DNA from: a virus
Strand: one strand, 5' to 3'
Virus record (IMG/VR): IMGVR_UViG_3300008954_003475
Span: 157,879 to 221,878 of that record
DNA length: 64,000 nucleotides
Shown: one piece after another, positions 28,978 to 63,206 of the stretch
How the letters are laid out: each line of letters starts with the position of its first letter
Numbering within the stretch: the first letter of the stretch is position 1
The notes under the pieces: model-generated
Told to the model about the DNA's origin: nothing
What the model saw: the letters and a program-made list of their open reading frames with translations, nothing else
Database searches by the model: none
Position numbers and translations under genes: made by a program

Positions 28978-30486
28978 TTATAGCCTACGACTTGTACGAC
29001 TTGGCGGATATCCTGCTGCGGCTCTTTCTCGCGGAGTCATTCTTCTCCACTCTCTTTTTTGCTCCCTAGTCATATTATCCCAGTCTCTTCTTTGACCTCT
29101 TCTTGCCTCTTCTCTAAGATATCGCCGTTGTCTACGAGTTGTAGTACCTGAATCTCTAAGGTTGTTATTCACAGCAGATCTCTCTCTATCTGAAAAAGAA
29201 CTTCTCTGCTCCGGAATAAGCTGGCGTCTATAAGTAATAGGGATCCACAGCTTTGCGTCTACTGCTGCATTTCCAATCGGAGGTTTCGGATCTGTTGTAT
29301 TTTTCTTTTTATTGGTAAAGAAAAATACAGGAATCATTCTATTCTCTGCTGTATCATGAAATGCCCCTACGGAGCCATCCCTATCTCCGTTTGTCTTACC
29401 TTTAATCTCCGCTGCAGGATAGCCTCTAAAGCTACCACTCTGTCCCGCTTGTCCTGTCTGCCCTGCGCCACCAGACTCAGGCGTAAAGGTTGAAAGGGCA
29501 ATGCTGAAAGCACTTCCTGTATTGTCGTTATCATAAGCTGTTCTGACAGCAGCTTTGTTTGCGCCTCTTCCCAATACTGCAGTTGCAGTTGCTTTATCTA
29601 GAGGAAGATCTAATCCTGTTCCGTCAAATAATTTCGTTCTGGCCTCAAGAGGAAAGGACTCTGTTGCGGGGAACATGAGATAGCTTTCAAGCATCCTATC
29701 TCCATCTGTACCCTGTATCCCTCCGGTGTCCAGCCTTCCTGATAACATCCGTAAAGCTTCTTCTGCTGTTTCCGGAAGAGCACCCTTATCTGCTTTGGCC
29801 CAAGCCTGTTTAGATTTAGGTCCAAAATACCCATCGGGTACCAAATCTTTATCGCTATCATCTTTATACCCAAGCTCTTTAAGCTTCTCCTGAACAGCCT
29901 CTGCTGCATCTGATTTAAACAGCTTACCATCTTTCTTAAAAGGAGTAGCGGCCTGTGCAGCTTGTTGCTGACCGCCTTGCTGATCGCCTTGCTGATCGCC
30001 TTGCTGATCGCCTTGCTCCGAACTTCTACTGCTTAAGTGATGCCAGTCTCCAGGCCCGTCAGTCTTTTCATAAACAGCAGATGCCGCCGTGGAGCTCCAA
30101 CTCCCTTTAGGTAACTTTTTCCAGTCATAAAAGGAACCGCCACGGTTTCCTGCATTTAAACCCATGTAAATCCATCCTGACGGACCACCTGTACCTCCAT
30201 ATGCCTCTGCTTTGGCTTTGTCCCATTTCTCAACATCACCTCTGGTTAAACTATTTTCTGTATCAATGGTTAAAAGCTGCATCTTACCGGCTTGATTTCC
30301 CGTGCCTGCCCATACTGCATGTAGCTTTCCATCGGCCCCTTGCTTTACATGATAACTGTTGGGTTCTGGATCATCTTGTATACCCTTAGTAACAGCAGTC
30401 TTTACAAGCCCCTTTACAATCCTTGCCTGAGACTTGTAGCCTAACTTATAAAGCTCTTTAGCCAATGTGTTTAATTCATTATTCAT
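28978..30486 (-). CDS. Tag-module protein with peptidoglycan-binding-like domain (paralogue A)
   Basis: Residues 1-32 form the recurring module (LNTLAKELYKLGYKSQ, ending LVKTAV). A Gln/Gly-Asp repeat (QQGDQQGD) lies about residue 160. Residues about 195-245 match peptidoglycan-binding domain 1 (VQEKLKELGYKD, PDGYFGPKSKQAW). Then comes TGLDLPLDKATATAVLGRG with AYDNDN, also found in the next gene. The C-terminus is an Arg-rich coil (TREQKREWRRMTPRERAA). It probably sits in the virion or is ejected with DNA. Paralogous to the 774-residue protein upstream. Confidence 0.8.
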   Translation of the reverse strand: MNNELNTLAKELYKLGYKSQARIVKGLVKTAVTKGIQDDPEPNSYHVKQGADGKLHAVWAGTGNQAGKMQLLTIDTENSLTRGDVEKWDKAKAEAYGGTGGPSGWIYMGLNAGNRGGSFYDWKKLPKGSWSSTAASAVYEKTDGPGDWHHLSSRSSEQGDQQGDQQGDQQGGQQQAAQAATPFKKDGKLFKSDAAEAVQEKLKELGYKDDSDKDLVPDGYFGPKSKQAWAKADKGALPETAEEALRMLSGRLDTGGIQGTDGDRMLESYLMFPATESFPLEARTKLFDGTGLDLPLDKATATAVLGRGANKAAVRTAYDNDNTGSAFSIALSTFTPESGGAGQTGQAGQSGSFRGYPAAEIKGKTNGDRDGSVGAFHDTAENRMIPVFFFTNKKKNTTDPKPPIGNAAVDAKLWIPITYRRQLIPEQRSSFSDRERSAVNNNLRDSGTTTRRQRRYLREEARRGQRRDWDNMTREQKREWRRMTPRERAAAGYPPSRTSRRL

Positions 30487-30508
30487 TATTTATATCACCC
30501 TATTGATT

Positions 30509-32833
30509 TTAGCTTGGATTCTTTCCGCGCCACTGTTGTCTACGAGCATCTCTTGCGGCTCTATTGCGCTGTTGTATAGTTGTTTGCAGTGGCCCCGTTT
30601 GATTTTTCATAGCCTTTCTAACAGCTCGTCGTTCTTGATCTGTATGATAAGGAAGACCTTGTGCAAGCTGCTGTCTAAAGCGTACAGGCACCCACTTTCC
30701 TTCATAATTAAATAAAGGCTCATATCGTGTTGAGTTTGCCGGAAGATGTGTTGCCACAGTTCCCGCTCCTGCTCCGGAAACTCTCTCGGCAGGAATAACA
30801 GGAACATCGCCTGCTTGACCGCCGAGACCACCACCGAGTCCACCGCCGTCACCTCCGAGGTCTAACGGAGTACTAAATGCGGATAATGCAAAGTCAAGTC
30901 TTCCTTCTGCATTGTCTTTGTCATAAGCTTCTTCTACAGCCGTCTTGTTTGTTCCCTTGCCCAATACAGCAGCTGCGGTACCTGGATCCAAAGGAAGGTC
31001 CAAACCTGTTCCTTGAAACAATGCTGCTCTAGCCGGAAGATCTGCCTCTCCACTATATATAAGATACTTAGAAAGAGGCTTCTCTTCTCCGGTTTGTGCG
31101 GCTCCTCCAGCTTCGGCTGTATCGGAAGATCCACCGGCAGTTCTTTCTTCACTCTTACCTTCATCAAGTGCTTTTAAGGCCAAACCAGGAGATGATGGTC
31201 GGCCTCCTTTGTTTGCTTTGTTCCAAGCCTGTTGAGATTTTGTTCCCCAATCATTATCAATGTCTAACCTGTTTCCATCATCGTCTGTGAAACCAAGGTC
31301 ATTAAGCCTTCTTTGAACATCACCTATTGCAGAGTTACCCGCCGACCAACCGCTGGGAGATGATCCTGATCTTCTTGATGTTCCCGGGTCTGTTCCTGCT
31401 CCTGTTCCCGGGTCTGTTCCTGCTCCTGCAGAACCATCAGCAACTATTACCCAGCTACCGTCTTCCTTATCCGCAACACCAAAGCCAGGAACATCAGCCA
31501 TCATACTCTTGTATTGGCTGGCTGCTGACCAACCATCCATTTTTCTATATTCTGGATAAGCATGGTCGGTGTCTGGAAATCCATTTACCGGAATGCTATC
31601 AGATGAAGACGCGTTATTTACCTCATCGCTTACCCAGGTATCGGTTGCGCTATATCTCTTCGATGTCCACCTCGCATTACCTGTTAACTGTTTGTTAAAC
31701 ACAATACGGTGTAAATCGCCTCCGATGATTCGCCATCTAATGGGATTTGAACCCCATTCTTGATCAAGAGCATACTCACTTACTCCAGCGGCGACCCGTT
31801 CCTCCACAGTTGCTGCCTCAGAAACCGTCCCAGCAGCCGCATGTGCTGCGGCTTGTTCGGCAACTTGTCTGTCATTTTCTCTTACAAAGTCATCCCAATT
31901 TGTCTTGGCACGGTCGGCGGCTCGGGCAGCATCATCCTTGAAGGCACTTGAAGCTCCACTCAACATTATTGATTTAAACCAACTGCCGCTGGAATGGCCC
32001 GGCGTATAGGAGATCGCTGGCTCTTTCGTCGCCCCAGTGTCAAGCAGGCTCTCAGGGAGTCCTTCGCGGTAGTCGTCGGCGGCGAATGCGGCCCACACCG
32101 CTCTAGCAACCGCTGCTGCTTGCTCCTCATCACCCCCTGAATAAAAGTTCACGGTTGCCATTCTGTCGATTGCGTTAGTATATTCCTCAAGAGCTTTACC
32201 CAGCTTGTTCTGGCCTACGCTTCCATCCGAGGTGTAATTCCATGGAGCAGCAGTCTTTACAAGCCTCAAAGTCTCATTTGCTTGTTTTTCATACCCAGAC
32301 TTTCTCAAGGCTGTTGCAAGTTTGGTTAATTCTTTTTGTTCTGTATTCATAATGGTTCCTACCTTTGGTATCCTTCTTCTTTTTAATCTTCCAGTCTCCA
32401 AGAAACTAAAGTAATCTTCTGACTCAGTTTTAAACGGAATATTAATAGGTTTGGATCTTTCTCTTCTGTCAATATTAGATGGTGGTTTATCCTCATCAAT
32501 ATCAATAACCGATGGACCTCCAAAACCTGTGATAAATGATGCTTCAAAATCTTGCTGTTCGTAGCTAGACCTTGGTCTATAACCTTGCGCTCCGGGAGGA
32601 CTTCCGCCGGGAATGTCCGTTAAGCCCAAAGCTTGTTTGTGTATCTCTTGGAGTTTATTCTTTTTTGTCAACTTTTTGCCCTCGTCGGGTTCGTCGTCAG
32701 CATAATTATAAACTAACTCATGTGGATGAGAAGGAGTCCTTATAACATCCGGAGTCCTCTCTTTTATTACCGGTCCAGATTCATAATACGAAATTAAATC
32801 AAGGAGAGATAAACCCCTCTTCTTTTTTTTCAT
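30509..32833 (-). CDS. Large tag-module protein, peptidoglycan-binding-like (paralogue B)
   Basis: 774 residues. Residues 1-161 are Pro/Asp-rich and apparently disordered. The module (ELTKLATALRKSGYEKQAN, VKTAA) starts at an internal Met 162 (base 32350) with its own AGGA six bases upstream, so a 613-residue product may also be made. The middle (about 225-330) is Ala-rich from unusually GC-rich DNA. About 500-548 is the peptidoglycan-binding-like domain (VQRRLNDLGFTDD, WGTKSQQAW), followed by TGLDLPLDPGTAAAVLGKG and a C-terminal WVPVRFRQQL shared with paralogue A. Ends Arg-rich. Confidence 0.8.
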   Translation of the reverse strand: MKKKKRGLSLLDLISYYESGPVIKERTPDVIRTPSHPHELVYNYADDEPDEGKKLTKKNKLQEIHKQALGLTDIPGGSPPGAQGYRPRSSYEQQDFEASFITGFGGPSVIDIDEDKPPSNIDRRERSKPINIPFKTESEDYFSFLETGRLKRRRIPKVGTIMNTEQKELTKLATALRKSGYEKQANETLRLVKTAAPWNYTSDGSVGQNKLGKALEEYTNAIDRMATVNFYSGGDEEQAAAVARAVWAAFAADDYREGLPESLLDTGATKEPAISYTPGHSSGSWFKSIMLSGASSAFKDDAARAADRAKTNWDDFVRENDRQVAEQAAAHAAAGTVSEAATVEERVAAGVSEYALDQEWGSNPIRWRIIGGDLHRIVFNKQLTGNARWTSKRYSATDTWVSDEVNNASSSDSIPVNGFPDTDHAYPEYRKMDGWSAASQYKSMMADVPGFGVADKEDGSWVIVADGSAGAGTDPGTGAGTDPGTSRRSGSSPSGWSAGNSAIGDVQRRLNDLGFTDDDGNRLDIDNDWGTKSQQAWNKANKGGRPSSPGLALKALDEGKSEERTAGGSSDTAEAGGAAQTGEEKPLSKYLIYSGEADLPARAALFQGTGLDLPLDPGTAAAVLGKGTNKTAVEEAYDKDNAEGRLDFALSAFSTPLDLGGDGGGLGGGLGGQAGDVPVIPAERVSGAGAGTVATHLPANSTRYEPLFNYEGKWVPVRFRQQLAQGLPYHTDQERRAVRKAMKNQTGPLQTTIQQRNRAARDARRQQWRGKNPS

Positions 32834-32834
32834 A

Positions 32835-33962
32835 CTATCTCCTTACTAGGGGTGCTTCTCCGTTACTGAATATTCCAGAAAGAAGATCTGCCGCTTTCTC
32901 TATTCTGTCAAACTGTGCGTTAGCAACCGAATCAAAGGCTGCATCTTCATCAAAATCAATATCTTCATGCTGAACTCTAAAGGCGTCCTCTCTTGTTCGA
33001 CGCTCTCTGGCTTGTGCTATTCCACTATCTACATCTGTTAACAAAGCTAAAGCATCTTTTGGATTAGAAGGAAGAGCGCCCTTCCCTGCTTTAGCCCAAG
33101 CCTGCTTAGATCTTCTTCCAAAATCATTATCTGTTGCTAACTCTTTCTCTTCATTATCTGTATGCCCTAGCTCATTAAGTCTGACTTGAACATGCTCCCA
33201 TGTTGCGACCTCTGGCGTTTGAGCAGCACCTCCAGTCTCTCCTGTTCCAGACTGCGCTAAAGCAGTTCCTTGCGGAAGTTCTTTGCCCATTCTTTGAGCA
33301 TAATTCTGAATCTCACTCCAGTGACTAGCGAGATCTGGACTGGTTCTGATCCTCTCCTGATGCTCTTCGTCTCCCGATATATAAGAATCATACCATGACT
33401 TTGCTACCGCCCCAACATCAGAAGAACCTCCCGATGTTCCGCGACTTGTACCTGCCGACTCCATCCAATCAACAGTGTATTGAAGCATTCCTGCCATATC
33501 TCCTTCTTGTGGGTTTTCCTTTCCTGGGTAACCGGCCTTTGGTCCTAAAGATTTCCAATTTCGTGCTAAGTCGTCTCTTCCTATATGAGAAGTAAACGAC
33601 TCCCATCCTTTTTGCAAATCTCTACTCCATTTTGGATTCGACAAAGAAACCTCTACAAGATTAGCTTCATCAAACTGGGCCCATTTACCTTCTTTTGCTT
33701 TATCAAAAAAGAATTTCAAAATAGCTCTAAACACATTTACTCTATCACCTGTAGATAAATTTGCAGCGGTATCTGCCGCCGTCTTCAAGGCGCGAATAGC
33801 AGGCCTGAAGTTATCACCAACCTCTTCTTCATAATGCTCCCGATCCTCTTCTTCCGCCACTTCTTCCTGGGCAGTCTTTAAAAGATTGTCCAGCCTATCA
33901 GCTAGGTCTCTGTGACCAATGCTGTCTAAGTGATTTGCTAATTTAACTAATTCTTTTTGCAT
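32835..33962 (-). CDS. Tag-module protein with peptidoglycan-binding-like domain
   Basis: The N-terminal module is canonical (LVKLANHLDSIGHRDLAD, LLKTAQ). An acidic segment follows (about 32-50), then a helical region and a peptidoglycan-binding-like domain at about 250-300 (VQVRLNELGHTD, DNDFGRRSKQAW). The C-terminus (DRIEKAADLLSGIFS) is a divergent copy of the ending of the next two proteins upstream. AAGGAT lies before the ATG. Confidence 0.8.
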   Translation of the reverse strand: MQKELVKLANHLDSIGHRDLADRLDNLLKTAQEEVAEEEDREHYEEEVGDNFRPAIRALKTAADTAANLSTGDRVNVFRAILKFFFDKAKEGKWAQFDEANLVEVSLSNPKWSRDLQKGWESFTSHIGRDDLARNWKSLGPKAGYPGKENPQEGDMAGMLQYTVDWMESAGTSRGTSGGSSDVGAVAKSWYDSYISGDEEHQERIRTSPDLASHWSEIQNYAQRMGKELPQGTALAQSGTGETGGAAQTPEVATWEHVQVRLNELGHTDNEEKELATDNDFGRRSKQAWAKAGKGALPSNPKDALALLTDVDSGIAQARERRTREDAFRVQHEDIDFDEDAAFDSVANAQFDRIEKAADLLSGIFSNGEAPLVRR

Positions 33963-33976
33963 TTTAATATCCTTAT

Positions 33977-34534
33977 TTATCTAGAAAAGGTGCCTGGAAC
34001 GTATGTTGTAAATTCACGCGACATTAACTCTGCTAACTTATCAATTCTTTCCTGTGCAGAATTGGCTGCAAAAACTTGATCAAAAGCTTCATCGCTATCG
34101 AGGACACCCTGCTCTTCCAATCGAGCTTCTCTGTCAGCATTGTAGGCCTCAAGAATCTCCTCTTTCGTACCAGTTTGTGCCGATGTTTCTTCAGGAACAG
34201 GTGGAGGCTCATCAGATGCTACCTGCCCCTCGGCATCCTCACCATATTGATTTACGTCTGGTTCGGCATAACCGCCGGGGTTTGGGTCTCGTTCAAGCGA
34301 AACTGAATCAAGATTCTTTTGTGCGATCCATGAATTTCTCAATCGTTGATTCCATGTCCCATCATCTTCACCCTCGTGCCGAGGATACTGCAGCTTTAAA
34401 TCCTCGATCTCTTCGGCAGTAGGAGCTACTGCACTACTTTGCGCACTCTTTAAAATTACATCCAACTTATCAGCCAAGTCTCCATGCCCGATGTTGTCTA
34501 AGTGATTTGCTAATTTAACTAATTCTTTTTTCAT
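33977..34534 (-). CDS. Short tag-module protein, 185 aa
   Basis: A short member of the tag family: N-terminal LVKLANHLDNIGHGDLADK and ILKSAQ, an acidic Pro-rich middle of about 110 residues, and a C-terminal KLAELMSREFTTYVPGTFSR nearly identical to the ending of the next gene upstream. With no enzymatic domain, N- and C-terminal elements make up half the protein, so these ends probably carry the function (sorting or packing). A GGAG precedes the ATG. Confidence 0.8.
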   Translation of the reverse strand: MKKELVKLANHLDNIGHGDLADKLDVILKSAQSSAVAPTAEEIEDLKLQYPRHEGEDDGTWNQRLRNSWIAQKNLDSVSLERDPNPGGYAEPDVNQYGEDAEGQVASDEPPPVPEETSAQTGTKEEILEAYNADREARLEEQGVLDSDEAFDQVFAANSAQERIDKLAELMSREFTTYVPGTFSR

Positions 34535-34548
34535 TTTAATTTCTCCAA

Positions 34549-35502
34549 TTATCTTCTGAAAACTCCCGTAACATTAGTTGTAAATTCACGAGACATTAAC
34601 TCTGCTAACTTATTGATTCTATCATGAACCGATTCTGAAGCTTCCTTCTCTACTTCAGGATCAATAGGGCTAAACTCTACATCTAATTCTTCATCAGAAG
34701 AGCCTTCAGAGTCCTGCCAGCCACCAGTGTCACCACCTTCTGATCTCAACCTCTCTAAAATTTTATCCTTCAACTCTACCATTCTCATTATAAAGCTAGG
34801 GCCTTTTGGTTCTTTTCCGGCATCGGCAAACTCTTTGGCCGCCGCTCCTCTCGCCTCATCTTGAGCCTGTCTATCAAGAGCTTTGTCATCCGCACTCTTT
34901 GTCAAACTTAAAGAATCACTTCCCTCTTTTTTATTCAAGATACCATCAAGCCTATCGGCCAAGTCTCTGTGACCTATGTTGTCCAAATGATTTGCTAATT
35001 TAACTAGCTCACTTTGCATTTTATAGCTTCCTTTAGATCCCAGTTTGATAACATTATCAATACGATTCTTTTTATTAGTAGTATTTTTTGAAGCTTCTAA
35101 CTGCAATCTTTGATTGATCATTCCCTCTGCCGCTCTCTCTGCCGCTTCTGCAACACCTTCGCCGCCTGGAAACTCTCCTTTCTCTGCATCAAAATCTTCT
35201 ATATGACCATATTCATGAACCAAAGTTTTTGCTATTTGAGCTACCAAATACTTTATTTCTTCATCAGTAGCGTTTGGAGGAAACTTGTTTATAACAAAGT
35301 GTATCTTATCTATCTTCCCATCATTGTTTACATCTTCGGAAGAAACATAAGCTGCGGCGTTTGGATCGCCGGAAGCAGGTGCCGGACCCCATTCGCACTT
35401 ATTGCTATTCAACATAGACATTATCTCGGGCTTTAAACCAAGAGTTTGAAGACCCTGTTTGACCTTCGGCCAATATGGAGGTTGCGCTGTTTTCTTCAAC
35501 AT
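34549..35502 (-). CDS. HEYGH metallopeptidase-like domain joined to a tag-module protein
   Basis: Residues 1-161 contain a calcium-loop-like DVNNDGKID (57-65) and the zinc motif VHEYGH (96-100), suggesting a small metallopeptidase. Residue 162 (ATG at 35019, with AAAGGAAG upstream) begins a second block: tag module LVKLANHLDNIGHRDLADR, an acidic helical middle and the common C-terminal KLAELMSREFTTNVTGVFRR. The second block alone equals a full family member, so this may be a fused gene or one with internal initiation. The 1094-residue gene upstream overlaps its start by seven bases. Confidence 0.75.
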   Translation of the reverse strand: MLKKTAQPPYWPKVKQGLQTLGLKPEIMSMLNSNKCEWGPAPASGDPNAAAYVSSEDVNNDGKIDKIHFVINKFPPNATDEEIKYLVAQIAKTLVHEYGHIEDFDAEKGEFPGGEGVAEAAERAAEGMINQRLQLEASKNTTNKKNRIDNVIKLGSKGSYKMQSELVKLANHLDNIGHRDLADRLDGILNKKEGSDSLSLTKSADDKALDRQAQDEARGAAAKEFADAGKEPKGPSFIMRMVELKDKILERLRSEGGDTGGWQDSEGSSDEELDVEFSPIDPEVEKEASESVHDRINKLAELMSREFTTNVTGVFRR

Positions 35503-38500
35503 GTTTTATACTCTCCTAATAATAGATTATTATTCAAAGAAAATTTATCAAATAGGTTATATAATTCTTCTGATTCCTTTATCATATCTTGATCAACCAA
35601 AAGATTATACAATGGAACAATCTTTTGCATACCCAGCTTTGTTAATCCAAACTCTTCCATAATTTCAGCAAATCTAAGATTAACAATCTTTGCCCTGATA
35701 TCCTTTAACCTGCTCTTGCTTATACCACTTTGCCTAAGAGCTCTCTCGTTGCCGCCCAAATACCTTAGAAGGCCTGTTACTGTGTCTTGTTCTGGACCGC
35801 CATAAGGAAGCTCTGCTTCGTGAAAAACTTCTTTAACTAACCTTTCACCTTCAAGATACTTATCTCTGCTTAATTCAACGTCTCTTTTTTCTTGATCAAG
35901 CCTTCTGGCATCTCTTTCTCTCTCTCTTCTTGTGCTTATTATTGCACCATTTTGGGCTGGAGTCAAAGAATAATTGTATCCACCCTTCTTTTGTATCGGC
36001 ATTAAAGACTTAACTTTTTCAATACTTTTATTATCTGCTGGAATCCTAAATACATTTAATCCCAATATAGTATCGTCCTCTGCTTCTAACTTCTCCGGAA
36101 GCTCTTGATATATCCTTTTTCTTTTCTTTAAATTCTGTATAGAATTTCCACCTGACTTCAATAAATAAACATATTCCATACCCATTCTTTTTGCGGTCTT
36201 CATAGCGTTAACAATAATTAAATATGGATAATTTTGAGAAATAATCTCAAGATGTTTCTTGGAATCTTTCAGTTCAGGCTCTGAATATTTTTCTTTTAAG
36301 CCATGAAGACTTGTCGGTATTAGCCCAAGGTTATCCAGCCTATCCCTTATCTCTTTTGCTCTATCTCTATAAAGCTCCGAAGCTTTAGCATAAGCTTCGG
36401 CCTTCTCACTTTCGCTAGACTTATAACTTCCACTTATTTTCTCAAACTCTTTGGCCTTACTAGAATATTCTAAAAAGTCTACTGAATCCATTATCTCTAT
36501 AGTCTTTTTGGTAAAATCATCTGGCGAATCTTCCAACCTTGCCTCAAGCTCAGGAGTAAGGCTTTCATCAGCACGAAGCTCTTTCAGTTCCACATAAGCC
36601 CCGCCCTCTCCGTCTTTATAATTCAACTCAAACCTAGCACCTGTATTGCTTATGTAAGATATAGACCTATAAGCTTTCTTTGTTGGAGGCATCCTGTTAA
36701 AAACCCTGTCCAATACAACCGGATAATCTGATTGTATTTGTTCTATAAGAAGTTTCTCTTCAGGAAAAGAGGCAAGGGCCCAGGCCGAAGTAAACCCGGA
36801 ACTACCCAGGTTAGTATGTCCAACAAAATCTGCAGCACTAATGTTGTTTTTGTTTATGTCATACATTATCGGGGTCGGTGTTTCGTTGTCTTGCGTTAAC
36901 TCATATCTATCTACATCTGCATCTGTCAACTCCATTGGTCTTTGCTGACTTTGATAACCAGAATATTTTATCTTAGAATCAGGAAATGCTTCCATGTCTA
37001 TATCATTATGAGATCTGCTATGTATATCTTGTGCTTCATCCAGATGATCAATCTTTTCCAATCTTTTTAAAGCATACCTAAAAGGCTCGGGTATCAAAGC
37101 ATATTCTGATCCCCTGCTATACCTTGAGTAAAAATGATCAAAGTATGTTACTGAATCTTTGTTGCTTATAACAGCTTCCAAAACCTTTCTGTCTATCCTT
37201 CTTCTTAGATCACTAACTAGACGACCTGTAAATTTATAGCTGCTATCCAAAAAACACTTGTAATATTCTTCTATATTTTCTTCTATTTTCTTTGCAAATT
37301 CTATGGTCAACTCTGTTTTTAATTCTTCATCATCTATGTGATACAAGCTATCAGTTAATTTTTCACAGGCAGATTTGTCCATTCTGTTTAATATTAAATT
37401 GAAAACTTTTCTTTTTCCATCATCATCTAATTCTTGAGCAAAATATTTAAAAGACTCTGCCAACTTAGCTGGATCCATAGCTTCCAACACAGATCCCTCA
37501 TCTACACTTTCTCTAAAAATCTTATTCAGATCCAACTGTCTAGCTGTATCGTTCACTCTTCCTTCTGGATTGTTCATATGATTTATAAAATCATTAGGAC
37601 TTACTGTCAACAAGCTTCTATAGGCTACCTCTACATATTTATCGCGTATACTCTCTAGATCAACTGGCGCTCCAAACCAAGTTCTTATTCCAAGAAATCT
37701 GTTAGGCATCTTCTCTGCCATAAGAAGAAACACACTATCTGCTAAGTCTGGAAACTTTTCATTTAATTTATTATAAAAGAATGGATTAAAAATATTATTC
37801 TCTAAAAACTCAACATCATCTGATTCTTTTGCCATTTGCAACATATGATTAACAATTGCCTTCTCATGTTTTGGCATATTTTTATCTATTGCTAAATCAT
37901 ATACTCTAGTTAAGTTGCCAGAACTTATAGCCTCCTTCACTTCATCTATATATATCTTCGTACCCCTTTCGCCTTGTGGACTCTGACGACTTGAATTGAA
38001 TATAATTCTATCTAATCTATTTAATCGATCCTGTCCCAATATACTTTCAAAAGCATTTATAAGACCCTCTGACATTTCTTCTTTCTCATAGAGATAATGA
38101 TTATTGTCAAACAAATCAATAAACAAGTCTATTTTATCTCTTGTCGCATCAAAGACTGCTTGCTTTGAATTTAAATCAAAACGACTAATTCCAGATAAGG
38201 TGTTATTTAAATCATTAGACTCTCTCCAACCGGACTCTCCTCCGCTCATTCTATCTGCTACATTGTTTATCATAAAAATATATTTATTTACAAAATATGG
38301 CTCAAGTTCTCTTACGCTAAAGAGCCTATAGTTACTATGAGAAGGCCCTTCGTCTGTCTTTGCATCTAAAGCTTCTTTTACTTTTCCGTAAGAAAAAATT
38401 GTATTTAAAACAACCTGACCTTTCTGACCATGCCTGCCTGATGACAAATGCCTAATTGCTGTTGGGAACTTATCTCCATAAAGATCACTGTGCAATATTC

Positions 38501-38780
38501 CAGAAAATAGATCTTCTGCGTATCCTATTCTTTTTTGTTCTTGCATGTTTGCGTTTAATATCCAAAAGATTATAGCACCAACATGCCTTATCCCATGAAT
38601 ATCTCCATCCAAAAGCTCTTGAAAGGCTGCCTCTAAATCTTCACCTTCGCCCTGCTCTTCCTCTGATTCAAAATCAGAGAAGCTGCTTGATAACATATTT
38701 TGAACAAATTTTGCTTCCAAAGTTTCATTCGCTACTTTGAATAAAGTAAAAATATTATTTAATCTAGAATTTTTAATCAT
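35496..38780 (-). CDS. Large probable virion or ejection protein, 1094 aa
   Basis: Unrecognised. Mainly charged helices, no signal peptide. The N-terminus lacks the tag module. Around residue 677 is IEQIQSDYPVVL and later YLIIVNAMKTAKRMGMEYVYLL, an arrangement resembling the E-x-Q-S-D region of large phage polyvalent proteins. It is the largest protein of the 29-39 kb block, and its size fits a minor virion or ejected protein. Clustering with tag proteins makes virion association likely. Confidence in a role is low. Confidence 0.75.
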   Translation of the reverse strand: MIKNSRLNNIFTLFKVANETLEAKFVQNMLSSSFSDFESEEEQGEGEDLEAAFQELLDGDIHGIRHVGAIIFWILNANMQEQKRIGYAEDLFSGILHSDLYGDKFPTAIRHLSSGRHGQKGQVVLNTIFSYGKVKEALDAKTDEGPSHSNYRLFSVRELEPYFVNKYIFMINNVADRMSGGESGWRESNDLNNTLSGISRFDLNSKQAVFDATRDKIDLFIDLFDNNHYLYEKEEMSEGLINAFESILGQDRLNRLDRIIFNSSRQSPQGERGTKIYIDEVKEAISSGNLTRVYDLAIDKNMPKHEKAIVNHMLQMAKESDDVEFLENNIFNPFFYNKLNEKFPDLADSVFLLMAEKMPNRFLGIRTWFGAPVDLESIRDKYVEVAYRSLLTVSPNDFINHMNNPEGRVNDTARQLDLNKIFRESVDEGSVLEAMDPAKLAESFKYFAQELDDDGKRKVFNLILNRMDKSACEKLTDSLYHIDDEELKTELTIEFAKKIEENIEEYYKCFLDSSYKFTGRLVSDLRRRIDRKVLEAVISNKDSVTYFDHFYSRYSRGSEYALIPEPFRYALKRLEKIDHLDEAQDIHSRSHNDIDMEAFPDSKIKYSGYQSQQRPMELTDADVDRYELTQDNETPTPIMYDINKNNISAADFVGHTNLGSSGFTSAWALASFPEEKLLIEQIQSDYPVVLDRVFNRMPPTKKAYRSISYISNTGARFELNYKDGEGGAYVELKELRADESLTPELEARLEDSPDDFTKKTIEIMDSVDFLEYSSKAKEFEKISGSYKSSESEKAEAYAKASELYRDRAKEIRDRLDNLGLIPTSLHGLKEKYSEPELKDSKKHLEIISQNYPYLIIVNAMKTAKRMGMEYVYLLKSGGNSIQNLKKRKRIYQELPEKLEAEDDTILGLNVFRIPADNKSIEKVKSLMPIQKKGGYNYSLTPAQNGAIISTRRERERDARRLDQEKRDVELSRDKYLEGERLVKEVFHEAELPYGGPEQDTVTGLLRYLGGNERALRQSGISKSRLKDIRAKIVNLRFAEIMEEFGLTKLGMQKIVPLYNLLVDQDMIKESEELYNLFDKFSLNNNLLLGEYKTC

Positions 38781-38784
38781 ACCT

Positions 38785-39195
38785 TTAACACTTAGGGACG
38801 AACAATCTTGGCTTATTAGGCTTTATATATCTTGTTGATGTTGTAATGATATCAATTCCATCACACCTTATTATAGAAAAGAAATAGTTAAATGCCGATC
38901 TTGAGCTAACCTTTCTAACCTCTATCCATTCTCTTCTCTTAGAAGTAATGTCCGATGACTTTGCAAGAAACATATGAAGAGCAGAGCCGGCACTTGCCGC
39001 AAAGTCTTGTGCTATTATATCATTCAACTGCCTGTTGCTCAAGTCATATAAAACATCTCTATGAGAAAATCGCTCATTGAAATACTTTCTATACTTAATC
39101 CTCGCTGTCGTAGAAACACGAATGGGAAGACTTGTTCTAGGATCGGTCAATGAAGACTCTTCAATCTCTGCTTTCTTGTGTATATCTTTTGACAT
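38785..39195 (-). CDS. Hypothetical protein, 136 aa, first gene of virion block
   Basis: Unrecognised basic protein with many Arg/Lys (RVSTTARIKYRKYFNERF, AKSSDITSKRREW). It is the first gene after a strong terminator and so the likely promoter-proximal gene of the leftward virion block. AAGGG precedes the ATG. No catalytic motif seen. Confidence 0.7.
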   Translation of the reverse strand: MSKDIHKKAEIEESSLTDPRTSLPIRVSTTARIKYRKYFNERFSHRDVLYDLSNRQLNDIIAQDFAASAGSALHMFLAKSSDITSKRREWIEVRKVSSRSAFNYFFSIIRCDGIDIITTSTRYIKPNKPRLFVPKC

Positions 39196-40775: not shown

Positions 40776-42380
40776 TTACGAGTTATCGTTAGTGATCGAT
40801 TCATATATTGCAACTTCCGTAGTTAACAACGTGCCACTAGCTGATGCTGCATTTTCCAAAGCTGATCTCACAACTTTTACTGGATCAATAATTCCGCTCT
40901 TTAACATATCATCAACATAACAATCATTAAAGGCATCGTATCCACTAAACATTTTTTTAGAATTGATTATTTTTTCCATATAAGAAAAGTGTTCAATTCC
41001 AGCATTTGTTAAAATCTGAACAAAAGGTGCCCGTATTGATTTCATTATTACATCAACACCAATCAACTCTTCTGTAATAAGAGAGGTATCATTTTTTAAT
41101 TTTTGCAATACAGGAATACAATGCAAAAGAGCCGCACCGCCGCCGGGGACTATACCCTCTTCTACAGCAGCCTTAACAGCGTTTATAGCATCTTCCACTC
41201 GATCCTTCCTTTCTTTTACCTCTGCCTCTGAAATACCACCGACTTTAAACACGGCCACAGAACCAGATAGTGCTGACAACCTTTGCTTTATAGAGGCTAT
41301 CTCATAAGTCTCAAGGCTCTGCTCCAGCTGTACCCTTAGAGTCTTAATGCGTTCATCTATCTCATCTTGAGGACAAACCCCATCTATGATAGTTGTATCG
41401 GCTCTTGTGACAAGCACTCTTCTTGCAGTACCTAAATGCTCAACAGATATATTTCTTAGTGGACAACCTGCTTCATTAGTAAATAAAGTTGTTCCACAAA
41501 CCGTTGCAATATCTGAAAGCATACCTCTTCTTATATCTCCGAACCCTGGCGCTCTTACGGCACAGGAGTGTAATGCTCCACGCGCCTTGTTAAGAACAAG
41601 GGTCTGCAAAGCCTCCCCTTCAGTAGTCTGAGATATAACCAACAGGGGTCTTGCCTGTTCTGAAACTGCTTCTAATATAGGAAGTATATCATATGTATTA
41701 GATATCCTTCCATCATAAACCAAAATTAATGGATTATCAAACTCTACAGTAAGCTTTTCTAGATTTGTAGCAAACGTGGGCGTTATATATCCTTTATCAA
41801 AGGTCATACCTTCCGTATATACTACAGCTGTTTCAAAGCCTGGAGCATCTTCTACAGATATCATTCCATGATCTCCAACAGCCGAAACAGCTTCTCCAAT
41901 AGTTGTGCCAAGACCTACATCATTATTTGAAGATACAATCGCTACATTCCTTATAGTCTCTTCATCATCAACAGACTTGCTAATATCCTTTAACTTTTTA
42001 ACAACTGTATTAACAGCTTTGTCTATCCCTCTTTTGATCAAGACCGGATTGTGACCAGCTGCAACCATTTTAGCCCCCTCTGTAAAAATAGATTGAGCTA
42101 AAACAGTTGCAGTGGTTGTTCCGTCACCTGCCGATGCATTTGTGGACGAAGCTACACTCTTAATGAGTTCTGCCCCCATGCTATGCATCTTATCCTCTAG
42201 AGTTATAGATCTAGCGACTGTAACTCCATCCTTGGTAATGAGTGGTGGGCCAAAGCTTCTTTCTATAGCTGCATGACGCCCCTTCGGTCCAAGCGTTGCC
42301 TTCACAGCATTAGCCAATACATCAAGCCCATCTTTAAGACCATTTCTTGCATCAGCGCTAAACTTAACTTCCTTGCCCAC
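40776..42380 (-). CDS. groEL: GroEL-type chaperonin (Hsp60)
   Basis: 534 residues, full-length group I chaperonin: [27 protein letters not shown], the ATP motif [12 protein letters not shown] (about 84-95) and the C-terminal PGGGAALL. The usual Gly-Gly-Met tail is missing and no GroES is encoded here, so it may use host GroES or act without one, as reported for some phage chaperonins. Expression probably comes from the promoter at 42731-42758 together with the small membrane protein upstream. It may fold capsid or other phage proteins. Confidence 0.97.
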
Positions 42381-43864: not shown

Positions 43865-45334
43865 ATGAAAAAAGATCTAAAATTATTATCATCAAAGTTA
43901 AAAGAGTATGGGGAATACGAAGCCTCCTTGTCTGTGAATGAATTGATAAAAAGTATAAGCGAAATACGCGATATATCGTTATTAAAAACTGCCGAAACCT
44001 CCGTGGCATCAGGCGATGTAGGAAGTGTGACTCAAGACTCAACAAACCCAGGTTTGGCAGGGTTTATTGAAGCTACTAGTCAGGAGCCGACCGTGACTGC
44101 TCCAACAAACCCAGGTTTGGCAGGGTTTATTGAAGCTACTAGTCAAGAGCCACAACCCCAACAAGCCTCGCAGTCTTTTGAAGATAATCCAGAGTTTAAA
44201 GCATGGTACAAAATCCTAGAAGATTATGAAAAAGTCCCAGGACGAGTAGAGAAGTTTCATGAAATATCAGACAAAATAATGTCAACAGTACTATCTCCTA
44301 TTTTAGGCCATAAAAAAGACCTAGTAGCGGAAGGCGCTCAAGAACCAAGCGAAGCCCAAAAGAATCATATGGCTTCAAAGATGAGAGAACAAGGCAGAAG
44401 CGTCAATACAGCCATGGAAATGTCAGAAGAAATGCAAGGTGGCGAAGAAGGCCCTTTGTTTATGACTGCATCAAACTTTTATATTAAACAAAAAAAAATT
44501 GCATCAACAAACAATTATCTAGACAACTACCTTTCAAGTATTGATCTGATGAATCATGACTTTAAATTAATATCTCTCGCAGCAAGCGAAGTAAACCCGA
44601 TGGGTATGTTGGAAATGATGGACAAAGAAGAAAGAGGACTATTAGGAGCGGTTGACCCAAGAACAGGGCAAACAAGCTGGGGAGAATTAGCTGGGGCTAA
44701 CAAGATCAAGCCAGCAGGCGTTAAGCCTGGACTTCTCGGCAGAGGAATGGCTGTTATCGGCATTTTGTTTTCTGGACCATTATTGGTTAAAAATTTAGTT
44801 GAAGCTATAAGAAATGGAAATACAATTGTTAATGAATTACCCTTGGAAAAATATGAAATATCAATAACTAGCGCACTCACCGGCCTTAGTGCAAATAAAC
44901 TTATTGGAAAAATAAGAAAAGCAATAAGAGAAAATCAAGAAAATCCAGAAGCTTTATATGAAATACTTGAAATTGCTAAAACATTATCTGCATATTGGCT
45001 TGATGTTATTTTCATGGTAACAAATGCATTAATGGCAATCATAGATATTCTAACACTAGTCGCTATGTTCGCAACGGCCCCACTTCCGATAGTGTCTGCT
45101 GCGGCTGGAGGCATTGGTATGCTTCTATCTATGGGCCTAATGGGATTAGAATTTGGTGCAGAATCTATGGTTCATAGTTATTGGGATGCTCAAAAACTAA
45201 AGATAAAGAAAATTGCAGAAAAAAATATAATATCCATGACAGGCGGGGAAGAAAAATCAGGTCTAATTGCCGGGGCCGAAGCGCCCACTATAACGTCTGA
45301 TACCTTTCAAGTGGCCGCATCATTAACAGGTTAG
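43865..45334 (+). CDS. Plus-strand tag-like membrane protein, 489 aa
   Basis: One of only two plus-strand genes. Its N-terminus (LKLLSSKLKEYGEYEASLSV, then SLLKTAE near residue 40) is a divergent version of the tag module. Two 21-residue tandem units with TNPGLAGFIEATSQEP follow. A helical middle is followed by hydrophobic segments at about 300-318 and 375-430 (LDVIFMVTNALMAIIDILTL and IVSAAAGGIGMLLSMGLMG), so it may insert in membrane. Such a layout fits an ejected or pore protein. Its TAG overlaps the stop of the opposing gene by four bases. Confidence 0.8.
   Translation: MKKDLKLLSSKLKEYGEYEASLSVNELIKSISEIRDISLLKTAETSVASGDVGSVTQDSTNPGLAGFIEATSQEPTVTAPTNPGLAGFIEATSQEPQPQQASQSFEDNPEFKAWYKILEDYEKVPGRVEKFHEISDKIMSTVLSPILGHKKDLVAEGAQEPSEAQKNHMASKMREQGRSVNTAMEMSEEMQGGEEGPLFMTASNFYIKQKKIASTNNYLDNYLSSIDLMNHDFKLISLAASEVNPMGMLEMMDKEERGLLGAVDPRTGQTSWGELAGANKIKPAGVKPGLLGRGMAVIGILFSGPLLVKNLVEAIRNGNTIVNELPLEKYEISITSALTGLSANKLIGKIRKAIRENQENPEALYEILEIAKTLSAYWLDVIFMVTNALMAIIDILTLVAMFATAPLPIVSAAAGGIGMLLSMGLMGLEFGAESMVHSYWDAQKLKIKKIAEKNIISMTGGEEKSGLIAGAEAPTITSDTFQVAASLTG
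44040..44145 (+). repeat. Direct 43-bp repeat in plus-strand gene
   Basis: Identical 43-base runs at 44040-44082 and 44103-44145, offset 63 bases, encode two copies of a 21-residue unit. The identity at silent positions indicates a recent duplication. Confidence 0.85.
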
Positions 45335-47570: not shown

Positions 47571-48014
47571 TCAAGTGTTCATATCGACTATTTTATATAC
47601 TCTTCCAAATTTAGAAAACTTCTTTCCATTAGAAATAAGTTCTGCCAAACTTAATAAGAAAGCTCCTTCTTCTTCTTTATATCTCTGACTGCTTACTTTT
47701 CTAACACTCTCCAGCTCTTCTGTCTTTTCTTTCCATATCTTTAAGAAATCAGCTGGAGAGTCTCCGGTCAAAGACTTAAAATATTTATCATAATCAGACA
47801 AAGTTGCTGCGCTATTACCCTCTTTTGCAGACCACTCTTTATCTGATTCTAAAACTTTTTTACTTTTAGATATAGAGGATACTACCATAGATTCGTCTGA
47901 CCTCAAAGACTCAGAAAGAACCCATCCAAAAGAAGTTGTATCGCCAACGCTTTCTTCATGATAAGAATAAAGCTTGTTGATCTTATACTTTTTTATAAAA
48001 TCATCCACCTTCAT
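47571..48014 (-). CDS. Hypothetical protein, 147 aa
   Basis: Unrecognised. The start MKVDDFIKKYK overlaps the glutamine synthetase end by 14 bases. The reading from 48059 would overlap by 59. Charged helices with a Trp-containing middle (SPADFLKIWKEKTEELES). No motif. Confidence 0.65.
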   Translation of the reverse strand: MKVDDFIKKYKINKLYSYHEESVGDTTSFGWVLSESLRSDESMVVSSISKSKKVLESDKEWSAKEGNSAATLSDYDKYFKSLTGDSPADFLKIWKEKTEELESVRKVSSQRYKEEEGAFLLSLAELISNGKKFSKFGRVYKIVDMNT

Positions 48015-52052: not shown

Positions 52053-52138
52053 TGGTAGGGACGGTGGGACTCGAACCCACAAGGTCTTTGACCGACAGAT
52101 TTTAAGTCTGTTGCGTATACCAATTCCGCCACATCCCC
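52053..52138 (-). tRNA. tRNA-Leu (anticodon UAA)
   Basis: The minus strand gives a full class II tRNA: GGGGATG acceptor with one G-U at the end, D-arm with GGCGGAATTGGTA, anticodon stem CAGA/TCTG with loop CTTAAAA (anticodon TAA), long variable arm, T-arm GTGGGTTCGAGTCCCAC, discriminator A and encoded CCA. It lies 14 bases after TilS and is probably part of the same transcript. Confidence 0.96.
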
Positions 52139-53181: not shown

Positions 53182-53502
53182 TTAGTCCAAATATTCTGAT
53201 ATAGCTTCTTTTATAAGATCTAAATCTTCAACGTCAAGAGCTTCAATTAAAATGTCAGATATTCCTGCTTTAAATTCTTCATTTTTTGAATTTACAAGAA
53301 TACTTTTCAAATCCTCTAGAGAAGAATACTTAGCATTAGGTATTGATTCGTCTTCATTAAAGTATACTTCATCACAAGAAGGTTCACTAAGATCGCCCCC
53401 TACGCTATACAGTTTATGAATTAAAGAATCAATTTCTAAAGATTCTTTAATCAACTCCATTTCAAACAATTCTTTAGATAATTTTATCAGGTCTTCTAAC
53501 AA
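53182..53502 (-). CDS. Tag-module-like acidic protein, 106 aa
   Basis: The N-terminus (LIKLSKELFEMELIKESLEI) is a divergent tag module, followed by acidic helices (SLEDLKSILVNSKNEEFKAG). Small and without enzymatic motifs. It is read away from the plus-strand membrane gene. Whether it belongs to the same family as the 29-35 kb proteins is likely, not certain. Confidence 0.65.
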   Translation of the reverse strand: MLEDLIKLSKELFEMELIKESLEIDSLIHKLYSVGGDLSEPSCDEVYFNEDESIPNAKYSSLEDLKSILVNSKNEEFKAGISDILIEALDVEDLDLIKEAISEYLD

Positions 53503-55322: not shown

Positions 55323-55676
55323 CTAATATTGCTTATAAATAGCCAAGCCATTTTCTACAATATAATCATTTATACAAACCATATTTCCAGACATATCTAA
55401 CCATATATTTGCAAGATATCTTCCATACTTGCCCTTGCCATCTTTTATGGTTTGTATAACAACTTTTTGATTTAATACTAAAGATCTTAAAAAATCTCTA
55501 GATTCTCTTCCCTGTTCTAAGGTTTCTCCTCTTAACTCTGGAGCGTTAATTCCATAAAGTCTAATCTTTACTTTTTCTTTTTTAATAAAAAGCCCAAGAT
55601 CAACTGTGGCAGTCACGGTATCTCCATCATATACGGAGGTTATAAATGCTTTATAGTGGTAAAGGCTTTCTATCAT
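55323..55676 (-). CDS. Staphylococcal-nuclease-like (SNase/TNase) enzyme
   Basis: 117 residues with the SNase core: VYDGDTVTATVDLG (17-21 DGDTV), KIRLYGINAPELRG (catalytic R and E) and GKYGRYLANIW (second Arg). No signal peptide, so it is cytoplasmic. Thermonuclease family enzymes cleave DNA and RNA to 3'-phosphates. It overlaps AsnB by four bases. It could assist host genome breakdown. Confidence 0.92.
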   Translation of the reverse strand: MIESLYHYKAFITSVYDGDTVTATVDLGLFIKKEKVKIRLYGINAPELRGETLEQGRESRDFLRSLVLNQKVVIQTIKDGKGKYGRYLANIWLDMSGNMVCINDYIVENGLAIYKQY

Positions 55677-57325
55677 TCTTTGTAATCTCCAAGTTCTCTA
55701 GCTGACGGGTCAATAACGTCTGTCCATTTTGGCATCCAAAAATGAGGAATTAAGTTATCGTGCTTACCGTCCTTGAATAAACTATTGAAAATCTTTCGAT
55801 AATAATAGCTTTCTTTTAGCAATGGTTTGCAATGTATTATTGCCCTTGAAGCTTCTTCAAATTCTTTATCAGTAACCATTGTATCAATATATTCCTTAAG
55901 AGACTTATGCCAAGAACTTTTTATACTGCTAACCCCATCTGAGAAAGCACATTTGTGTCGCCACAAAACATCTATAGGCAAAAGATCATCTTTTTCAAAA
56001 GCTTTTCTCAATAAATGTTTTTCAATCCTGTTGATCTTATCAAAGGTTTTCTGCTCTGGAGGAATACTCATATAAAAGTCAACAAAACCTTTGTCCAAGA
56101 ATGGAGTTCTTGCTTCTAATCCATTAGAGCTTATACTCCTATCTGATCTTAATCCATCAAACAGATATATCTCTCGGAGCAGCCTGGATGATTCGTTGTG
56201 AATGTCCGCAGGTGTTGGGGCATTTAAGTTGTAAACATAGCCACAGCAAGCCTCATCGCTTCCATCTCCATTGAAGATCACTTTACAGTCTGTATTCTCC
56301 TTAACAAACTTTGACACAAGATAGTTTCCAACACTAGCTCTGACCGTTGTTGTGTCAAATGATTCAATCTTATATATAACTTCCTCTATTGCGCTCAAAA
56401 ATTCTAGCTCTGATAGCTCAACCTCATTATGGTCACTGTCGATATGGTTGGCAACTTTTTTTGCATATTCCAAATCAGGGCTTCCATTCATGCCTATACT
56501 AAAAGTTTTAACTGGAGACTTATCCTCAAGGTCTGGAAACATTTTCCACTCATCATCAATAAGCCTGTATCCCTTTTTCATATGACAAACTAAAGACGCT
56601 ATAAGACTTGAATCAAGGCCTCCCGATAACAAGCATCCAATCTCCCTATCTGACATCAATCTTTTCTCTACAGCTTTTACCAGGCTTCTCTTTATGCCTT
56701 TTAGAATTTCATCTTCCGAAAGATTATTATCTATATTATATTCACAACAATAATGTGAAGTAAATGATTCTGGATCTTCTGAACTCCACCATGTTCCTGG
56801 AGGCATGGGTATTATTGTGTGACAAAGATCGACCAAAGCCTTTGCTTCTGATGCAAAAAAGATCTCTCCGTTAATATCTGTTTGTCCAAAAAATGCTGGC
56901 CGGACCCCAAATGGATCTCTTGCGGCATAAAGTATATCTGTATTTCCATCGTATAAGGTGAAGGCAAAGACTCCATCTAACATGGGTAGAGTTTTTTCTA
57001 TTCCAAACTTTTTATAAAGATGCAATATAATTTCACAATCAGAGTTAGAGTATGTATCAAAGCCAAAGCGTGACCTTAACTCTTTATGGTTATAGATTTC
57101 TCCATTACAAACAATAGATATCTTTGAATCCTCTGGCAAAAACAAAGGCTGATCTCCAAGGTCAGATGTATCAATAATTGAAAGCCTATGAAAGAAAAAG
57201 ATAACATCAGAAGCTACTTGGGCATGCTTTGAGTTATCCGGACCTCTATAGTTTATTCTATCAGAATGTTCGACCAGATCTGCTGTCGAAAGTGTATTCC
57301 CAAGGTATGATAAAAAACCGCACAT
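55673..57325 (-). CDS. asnB: Asparagine synthase (glutamine-hydrolysing), AsnB type
   Basis: 550 residues: Cys2 glutaminase start (MCGFLSYLG), NYRGPDNSKH, DGVFAFTLYD, then the PP-loop LLSGGLDSSLIASL, NGDGSDEACCGY and EARTPFLDKGFVDF. Both amidotransferase and synthetase domains look intact. It converts aspartate to asparagine with glutamine nitrogen; some relatives serve in cell-surface sugar or DNA modification pathways. It could pair with the GSII-type enzyme. Confidence 0.95.
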   Translation of the reverse strand: MCGFLSYLGNTLSTADLVEHSDRINYRGPDNSKHAQVASDVIFFFHRLSIIDTSDLGDQPLFLPEDSKISIVCNGEIYNHKELRSRFGFDTYSNSDCEIILHLYKKFGIEKTLPMLDGVFAFTLYDGNTDILYAARDPFGVRPAFFGQTDINGEIFFASEAKALVDLCHTIIPMPPGTWWSSEDPESFTSHYCCEYNIDNNLSEDEILKGIKRSLVKAVEKRLMSDREIGCLLSGGLDSSLIASLVCHMKKGYRLIDDEWKMFPDLEDKSPVKTFSIGMNGSPDLEYAKKVANHIDSDHNEVELSELEFLSAIEEVIYKIESFDTTTVRASVGNYLVSKFVKENTDCKVIFNGDGSDEACCGYVYNLNAPTPADIHNESSRLLREIYLFDGLRSDRSISSNGLEARTPFLDKGFVDFYMSIPPEQKTFDKINRIEKHLLRKAFEKDDLLPIDVLWRHKCAFSDGVSSIKSSWHKSLKEYIDTMVTDKEFEEASRAIIHCKPLLKESYYYRKIFNSLFKDGKHDNLIPHFWMPKWTDVIDPSARELGDYKE

Positions 57326-57732: not shown

Positions 57733-58107
57733 TCAGTTAGGCAGACTTCCGCTTATAAGCTTGTTGCAACATGAACATATAAATGGGCTAGCCATAACTG
57801 TTTCGTTATCTGAATAATCAAAGGTTACTTCATCATCGACATTTATCTCTTTGATTGCAATAACTTTGTGACCGTCTATTTTGCAGGAGGGGTTACAACT
57901 GTGGTTTATAAATGCGCCGATTTTGTCTTCAATATGCTTATTTTTTGCAACCTGAATAGATGTACGAGTCGGCCTATGTAATACTTCTCCACTCAAATAC
58001 AGAACCGTATCATTAGCATCAAACTTTCGTTTAACAAAGATACCGCTCTGTCCAGGCTTATTTGCTATTGGGGCTATACAAAGACTGTTTAGGTCTAAGT
58101 CTTTCAT
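57733..58107 (-). CDS. SET-domain protein (protein lysine methyltransferase-like)
   Basis: 124 residues of a minimal SET fold: SGIFVKRKFDANDTVLYLSGEV, GAFINHSCNPSCKIDG (the NHSCxPN catalytic motif) and VTFDYSDNE, with an end FICSCCNK resembling the post-SET zinc site. It could methylate host or phage proteins with S-adenosylmethionine. SET domains in phages are uncommon. It is followed by two more genes with one-base gaps. Confidence 0.85.
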   Translation of the reverse strand: MKDLDLNSLCIAPIANKPGQSGIFVKRKFDANDTVLYLSGEVLHRPTRTSIQVAKNKHIEDKIGAFINHSCNPSCKIDGHKVIAIKEINVDDEVTFDYSDNETVMASPFICSCCNKLISGSLPN

Positions 58108-61499: not shown

Positions 61500-61509
61500 A
61501 ATGTTTTCC

Positions 61510-62246: not shown

Positions 62247-62255
62247 ATCTTTCGA

Positions 62256-62477: not shown

Positions 62478-62494
62478 TGTGTTGTCTTCCTGTG

Positions 62495-62716
62495 TTATCT
62501 TGCAGAATTTATATCATATTTGTTATACAAATCATTTTTACCAATAATGCTTCCACTGTAATCTGGGTTTACTACCTTTCTGTTGTTCCAATAAATTGTT
62601 TCAACAACATACTTTTCTATATCTGGATAATAAGTCAAAACACGGTGTCCGTAATCTTTATCGTCTAAAGCACGAACTTCTTTCCCAGCCAAACTATCTG
62701 AATCAAACATTATCAC
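62495..62716 (-). CDS. Small protein, 73 aa
   Basis: Unrecognised. Short beta-rich protein (EVRALDDKDYGHRVLTYYPD, YVVETIYWNNRKVV). Overlaps the previous gene by 14 bases. Confidence 0.6.
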   Translation of the reverse strand: MIMFDSDSLAGKEVRALDDKDYGHRVLTYYPDIEKYVVETIYWNNRKVVNPDYSGSIIGKNDLYNKYDINSAR

Positions 62717-63206
62717 ACCCTTCTATGATAAGTAAATCAATTTCATCGGCAGCTTTGATATGTCCCATCGAATCTAAATAATTAGAAAGTTTTATAAGGC
62801 TGTGCTTAACCTTTGAAGTAATATCGTTAGGCCGGGAAGAACTATCTTTATTACCCAGAAGAATTGCATGATCTTCTTTTATTCTGGTCAATATTTCGCA
62901 AGGAACGCCAGCCTCTTCAAACCACTTTACTTCACGCTTGCTATGTGCAAGCATTTCTTTTTCCGGAAACCCTTTTTCTTCAAGTTCTTTATGCTCTTTT
63001 AAAAGTTTCTTTTTAATTTTATCGGAAAGAAAAGGAACCGCCTCTTCTTTTTCAAATTCAAAATGACATTCGGGGCAACATGAAGTTTCCTCTTTCGCCT
63101 GTTTTTTTTCGCTGCATGATTCACATGCGGCTTTATTTAAAGAATCAACACTCCAGGTGTATGGTTCGTTCAAATAGGTTGCAAGATTTGTAATTCTATC
63201 AGTCAT
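62703..63206 (-). CDS. Cys-rich protein with C-terminal tag module, 167 aa
   Basis: The N-terminal part has two Cys pairs (ACESC near 28-32; CCPEC near 43-47), likely zinc. A charged helical middle follows. Residues about 133-163 (SLIKLSNYLDSMGHIKAADE) are a clear copy of the tag module, here at the C-terminus. The location differs from all other members. Function unknown. Confidence 0.75.
   Translation of the reverse strand: MTDRITNLATYLNEPYTWSVDSLNKAACESCSEKKQAKEETSCCPECHFEFEKEEAVPFLSDKIKKKLLKEHKELEEKGFPEKEMLAHSKREVKWFEEAGVPCEILTRIKEDHAILLGNKDSSSRPNDITSKVKHSLIKLSNYLDSMGHIKAADEIDLLIIEGCDNV

Follow-up and report, generated by a model that had tools for sequence, protein, structure and literature searches.

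What does a stretch of about 30 residues do that recurs on proteins which otherwise mostly differ? This question is raised by the window analysed here, a stretch of 64,000 nucleotides that spans positions 157,879-221,878 of a virus record of 221,878 bases. An earlier note on this DNA had described the pattern on at least eight proteins and had compared it with the capsid targeting sequences (CTS) of internal head proteins in other large phages, possibly cleaved near K-T/S-A. The proteins that a phage carries into the cell are usually learned only via proteomics of isolates. For our analysis, genes were taken as the longest open frames in metagenomic records, which may be fragments. Coordinates are those of the window unless record coordinates are indicated, Ø stands for L, I, V, M or F, and the head cluster comprises record positions 113-141 kb.

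Results

Recurrence of the module

The module comprises 31 residues with the consensus M-I/L-K-E-L-I-K-L-A-N-x-L-D-S-K-G-L-x-K-E-A-D-x-L-D-x-I-I-x-K-x-A. Its conserved columns are L5, L8, A9, N10, L12, D13, G16, A21, D22, L24, D25, I27/I28 and the K-x-A end, and conservation ends at about column 31. AlphaFold predicts a helical hairpin (helices at residues 2-14 and 18-33, mean pLDDT 92). The pattern given in the earlier note matched eight times in the whole 221,878-bp record, versus 0.035 matches expected from shuffled proteins. A profile of the module copies detected nine strong copies on seven proteins of the record (E 1e-13 to 2e-18) in addition to the weak copy of 53182, and after retraining on nine related records it converged at 73 copies on 66 proteins (E<1e-3). 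E-values of iterated profiles depend on the members included; the decoys (reversed and shuffled proteins) stayed empty even at E<1. When three further records were added, the search of the whole record and of related phages that the earlier note had proposed yielded a total of 112 copies, carried by 105 proteins from 12 related phage records. These carriers are 105 of about 2,700 proteins, with up to 17 carriers per record. Since the related records are kin to one another, such counts are not independent, and some of the P-values given below are optimistic because of orthologues.

The module occurred in viral contigs (18 of the 18 records of one searched set). Of 57 loci of 10 kb or more that contain a terminase, 39 had the module close to it. 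Comparisons with Pfam, PHROGs and PDB returned nothing significant or beyond chance level. Among 94 pattern matches in bacterial and archaeal genome contigs none was confirmed, and thus no cellular origin was seen. The profile found no module in phage G, Rctr197k, LR745208, Tunturi_5 and Myrna, and among annotated phages neither megablast (window positions 20000-44000) nor tblastn (module) returned relatives.

All eight proteins named in the earlier note carry the module. Profile matches confirmed the N-terminal copies in the minus-strand genes 28978-30486 (residues 1-31, positions 30394..30486, E=1.8e-14, ending in LVKTA), 32835-33962 (33870..33962, E=2.2e-18, ending in LLKTA) and 33977-34534 (34442..34534, E=3.9e-17, ending in ILKSA), as well as the C-terminal copy in 62703-63206 (62718..62810, minus strand, E=9e-16), a protein that has its own N-terminal LNKAA. 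The two copies that had been called more divergent were also recovered. At the N-terminus of 43865-45334 (43865..43960, plus strand) the copy is weak alone, and only a profile-profile comparison of its own family with the module detected it (hhalign probability 92.5%, columns 1-32 on residues 1-32); in this protein LLKTA follows the module at residues 39-43. The N-terminal copy of 53182-53502 (53413..53502, minus strand) reached E=1e-9 after iteration and is kept in orthologues. The two remaining copies begin at Met162, one in 30509-32833 (MNTEQKEL...LVKTA, 32249..32350, minus strand, E=1.7e-14) and the other, behind a zincin domain, in 34549-35502 (34927..35019, minus strand, E=5.5e-17). Further carriers lie outside the window at record positions 132417-132920 and 138062-139162, the latter with two copies.

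Copy position and probable internal starts

Seventy-five of the 112 copies are N-terminal (start within the first 40 residues), 11 are C-terminal and 26 internal. For the two copies at Met162 the site reported earlier was right (residues 162-165), but they are probably not internal in the biological sense. The in-frame ATG is preceded by the Shine-Dalgarno-like sequence AAAGGTAGGA in 30509-32833 (32357..32366, minus strand, duplex -7.8 kcal/mol) and by AAAGGAAG in 34549-35502 (35027..35034, minus strand, duplex -5.6 kcal/mol). In the relatives G009 and G010 the homologue of 30509 is present as two genes, the second of which begins with the module at this Met. The in-frame ATG with its ribosome-binding site and the split homologue suggest that both window copies are probably the N-termini of nested or fused genes and thus stand at the N-terminus of a short product.

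Across the related records, the Shine-Dalgarno strength of Met-starting internal copies (mean -5.6 kcal/mol) was like that of true starts (-4.9 kcal/mol), and other internal Met residues averaged -2.5 kcal/mol (P about 1e-6; this set of copies contains a few mis-called gene starts). For copies past residue 100, a Shine-Dalgarno match of at least 4 bases was found in 10 of 12 cases versus 22% of other internal Met residues. Exceptions that lack a start codon are the 138062 family, in which 1-3 copies follow a conserved domain, and the copy in 62703; another exception is a C-terminal copy on a CCA nucleotidyltransferase in G020.

Carriers and their genomic slots

Gene order is conserved across the relatives, and the carriers occupy three core slots at record positions 138.0 kb, about 132.4 kb and 186-196 kb, the last of which is the window cluster. 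The former two belong to the head cluster and are close neighbours of the terminase, and the 138062 slot, which is surrounded by head genes, has the module in most relatives. Other carriers form arrays in a variable region. The present record (G000) seems to be a fragment, in which the large variable accessory region of the relatives, full of tagged genes, is largely missing; the relative G019 (316 kb) has this region.

Most carriers are shorter than 400 residues and have one recognisable domain or none. Their bodies include PG-binding (PG_binding_1, E=4.5e-4), LysM (7.6e-4), OmpA-like (1.4e-4), zincin, ArdC-N (4.5e-5), DUF5591/ArcS-like and CCA tRNA nucleotidyltransferase domains, the LysM and PG_binding_1 matches falling below the gathering cut-offs. 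Two carriers appeared kinase-like by eye only, and PADLOC gave weak hits only. The zincin-like domain of 34549-35502 has an HEYGH (HExxH) motif at 35203..35217 (minus strand), and H96, E97 and H100 are invariant in 11 orthologues; the model of this protein was poor (pLDDT 65) and no PDB match was found. Its N-terminus bears an LKKTA site (35485..35499, minus strand), and KxA/KxS is kept near the N-termini of the orthologues.

That the rest of the tagged proteins differ widely, as had been stated earlier, is mostly correct. However, 28978, 30509 and 32835 share a peptidoglycan-binding-like segment, and a common C-terminal tail was found on the minus strand in 32835-33962 (DRIEKAADLLSGIF...LVRR, 32838..32915, E=5e-14), 33977-34534 (ERIDKLAELMSREF...FSR, 33980..34057) and 34549-35502 (DRINKLAELMSREF...FRR, 34552..34629). 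This tail (R-I-x-K-x-A-x-L-x-S-x-E-F...R-R) is present on ten proteins, all of which carry the module. Two genes of the window cluster have an N-terminal site without the hairpin, LFKVA in 35496-38780 (38730..38744, minus strand) and IHKKA in 38785-39195 (39169..39183, minus strand). The former encodes a 1094-aa protein with no relative among the other records compared.

An Ø-x-K-x-A signature in head genes

The module holds up to three Ø-x-K-x-A motifs, at columns 5-9, 17-21 and 27/28-31/32. Among the products of the head cluster are the terminase, the major capsid protein and a head maturation protease that continues into a long scaffold-like part; record positions 119771-123223 match the head maturation protease family phrog_18299 (E 1.4e-11). 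When we counted [LIVMF].K.A in 22 conserved, module-free head families, we found 372 occurrences versus 104 expected from shuffling (3.6-fold), whereas tail genes (92/80, 1.14) and other core genes (235/242, 0.97) were at chance. Reversed or shifted motif controls gave ratios of 0.7-1.5. In an unbiased scan of about 57,500 gapped triplets L.K.A ranked first (z 6.5) and I.K.A third in the head families, and the same scan revealed no enrichment of either outside them. The T4-type motif [LI].E had no extra enrichment in the head cluster (1.16 vs 1.10-1.13 elsewhere). The largest Ø-x-K-x-A excess of the whole core genome was found in head proteins, the 138062 family and the window zincin family.

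Conservation of the K (75%) and the A (72%) of these sites is well above the family mean of 50%, that of Ø is slightly above this mean, and the x positions (45 and 48%) match it. Seven sites of the protease-scaffold protein are kept 9/9 with varying x positions, and one protease-scaffold site, for example, reads LSKLA, FTKLA, MDKLA, FSKLA or MTKLA. Directly after the motif Q is enriched 3.2-fold. The signature was replicated in ten held-out TerL contigs without the module nearby (246 vs 71.8 expected; control 0.84), and the protease of phage G has seven motifs versus 0.7 expected. In phage G the motif stands near the N-terminus of the protease, the portal protein and gp20. Only two sites are present in the major capsid protein (residues 23-27 and 54-58), and they are invariant in 7 phages. 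Both lie upstream of residue 70, which aligns with the mature start of the phage G capsid protein, and thus in the probable propeptide.

In the carriers, 55 of the 75 N-terminal modules end in Ø.K.[AS], and the protein bodies are near chance (27 vs 19). A conserved cleavage motif downstream of the module was looked for and none was found past column 31; the candidate site is the one in which the module itself ends. A site within the first 60 residues was present in 6 of 7 genes of the window cluster (28978-39195), in 11 of 24 head genes and in 11 of 167 others (window cluster vs the 167 genes elsewhere, P=2e-6). Head-cluster proteins contain relatives of the module as well: among families that lack the module, hairpins resembling it were mostly located in this cluster (7 of the top 10; controls 2-4), with 86% for 126084. 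Another conserved head-cluster protein (755 aa, record 123472-125739), which has a DUF192 domain (2.8e-18), contains many Ø-x-K-x-A/S sites.

Other genes of the record

The record has two genes for Cpn60/GroEL-like chaperonins, at window positions 40776-42380 (Cpn60_TCP1, 1e-65) and record positions 144082-145737 (by eye). An Hsp20 small heat-shock protein is encoded at 46419-46895 (9.9e-22), and 17252-17773 resembles another by eye. Genes of nucleotide and amino-acid metabolism (IMP dehydrogenase, adenylosuccinate synthetase, glutamine synthetase, asparagine synthase, ThyX) lie at 22933-24033, 27308-28345, 48001-49083, 55673-57325 and 18224-18922. A SET-domain protein (57733-58107, 4.7e-8) is unusual in a phage. 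The 1125-aa protein at 12656-16033 has many GGG-x-x-N-x-A-S-type repeats and no Pfam match, and is perhaps a fibre. The sole tRNA of the window is a tRNA-Leu (taa) at 52053-52138.

Discussion

Judged from sequence, it is fairly probable that the module is a head-targeting propeptide, by which unrelated proteins are loaded into the phage head before the tag is removed. The hairpin tag would bring these proteins into the scaffold (core) while the head is still immature. There, the head maturation protease would probably recognise Ø-x-K-x-A and cut at the copies within the tag and at its end, so that the cargo would be freed inside the maturing head, accompany the DNA and be passed on to the next host. 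This reading is supported by the enrichment and conservation of the tag's end motif in head-assembly genes, and it is favoured by cargo domains appropriate to proteins delivered when the phage enters its host (PG_binding, LysM, OmpA-like, zincin, ArdC-N). We infer that Ø-x-K-x-A may be the cleavage site and that the tagged proteins may be packaged and ejected. The earlier proposal of a CTS-like tag cut near K-T/S-A is partly supported and has gained independent sequence evidence. Cleavage is the likeliest reading of the motif, since its every-second-residue alternation suits an extended protease substrate and since both sites of the capsid protein fall into its probable propeptide region.

Several observations speak against a head-targeting propeptide. 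The copies in the 138062 family and in 62703 are internal or C-terminal and have no start codon, and thus they are not N-terminal propeptides; about a quarter of the N-terminal modules are without a clean terminal Ø.K.[AS]. The capsid protein of phage G loses 27 residues (282 to 255) according to N-terminal sequencing (PMC5646251), and the implied cut A27|Q28 has Ala at P1, not K at P3. Moreover, CCA tRNA nucleotidyltransferase and DUF5591/ArcS-like cargo are not obviously needed at entry.

Instead of being cut, Ø-x-K-x-A could serve for docking. The hairpin would then be an uncleaved domain that binds the scaffold or a 138062-type protein, with the motif as a shared binding surface; the 138062-type partner itself has 1-3 copies, and binding would perhaps involve hairpin-hairpin pairing. 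The predicted folded hairpin with its conserved polar residues N10, D13, D22 and D25 is in line with this possibility, and so are the C-terminal and tandem copies and the module-like hairpins of head proteins. However, an alternation at every second residue would not fit helical spacing, and in the protease-scaffold protein and the propeptide region of the capsid protein the motif is present although the hairpin is absent. We regard uncleaved docking as rather unlikely.

A destination or partner outside the head, such as a phage-built compartment, the host membrane or one of the two phage chaperonins, appears improbable to us. Many carriers are located in accessory arrays far from the head genes, the record encodes a Cpn60 family protein, and the cytoplasm would be the site of action of some of the cargo enzymes, all of which would suit such an address. 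Yet it leaves both the module in the conserved head-cluster slots and the shared Ø-x-K-x-A signature unexplained. Even less credible is a recombination or expression cassette, in which ATG, ribosome-binding site and the first 31 codons were copied for expression and the proteins have no common destination. Neighbouring copies do share 80-81% DNA identity over 76-103 bases, and the identical context GGAGATATTAAAATG is found in different genes; on the other hand, the positions in the protein are conserved across divergent phages, and a start codon does not explain the C-terminal copies (62703, 138062, CCA nucleotidyltransferase). Chance similarity of a generic helical hairpin, e.g. a degenerate single tetratricopeptide (TPR) unit, was rejected and has a negligible probability, for although the spacing L-A-xx-L-xxx-G-xxxx-A equals the TPR consensus and a PPR protein gave a weak PDB match (E 0.036), the module has specific N, D and K/E positions, produced no decoy matches, occurs mostly as single units and, in 71 copies searched at E<0.1, matched none of the Pfam repeats, TPR included.

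For the head-targeting propeptide, the best reading by analogy is that the module would work like the CTS of T4 (IPI-IPIII), which is removed by the prohead protease gp21. In both cases a short N-terminal element stands on unrelated proteins, and some of the carriers are small, variable accessory proteins; the module would, like the T4 element, end in a motif that the head protease cuts. In contrast to the T4 CTS, a peptide of 10-19 residues, the module is a 31-residue predicted helical hairpin, is carried by up to 17 proteins per record and is sometimes C-terminal or in tandem. T4 cuts after glutamate, whereas the motif here is Ø-x-K-x-A and not the T4-type hydrophobic-x-E, and for this reason we do not place the module in the T4 family. 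An internal start is likewise present in the gene for gp21 of T4 (PMC9026906), and the herpesvirus protease is homologous to the head proteases of phages (cited in PMC9026906).

SPN3US and phiKZ (gp245-type protease) are likewise large phages with many head proteins, in which a conserved protease motif is repeated in propeptides (PMC10052503); their motif differs, most of their propeptides exceed 100 residues and no single module is common to them. Polyvalent proteins (Iyer et al., 2017) combine ArdC-N, zincin-like peptidase and peptidoglycan-attacking domains and are predicted to be packaged and delivered (PMC5512222), but here the domains are mostly on separate small tagged proteins, not on one giant multidomain chain. 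Bacillus phage G resembles the present group in its major capsid protein (46% identical) and in a related head protease rich in Ø-x-K-x-A, although the same profile did not find the module there.

Beyond the earlier note, our analysis added the evidence from the motif, the starts of nested genes, the arrays of accessory genes and the second tail, and it removed most of the 'internal' cases. We see an even chance, going by these sequence patterns, that a portable folded loading domain stocks the heads of a lineage of large marine phages with an open-ended, fast-changing set of effectors, together with a new Ø-x-K-x-A protease code and a second C-terminal tail in a subset. The module may offer a new way of loading proteins into phage heads, and this reading predicts the cleavage code of the head protease. 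Should the tag be a loading signal, one could read from sequence which proteins an uncultured phage group delivers. Sequence alone would then suffice to recognise the effectors delivered by the whole group from the module that they carry, here more than 100 candidates that include anti-restriction and cell-wall proteins.
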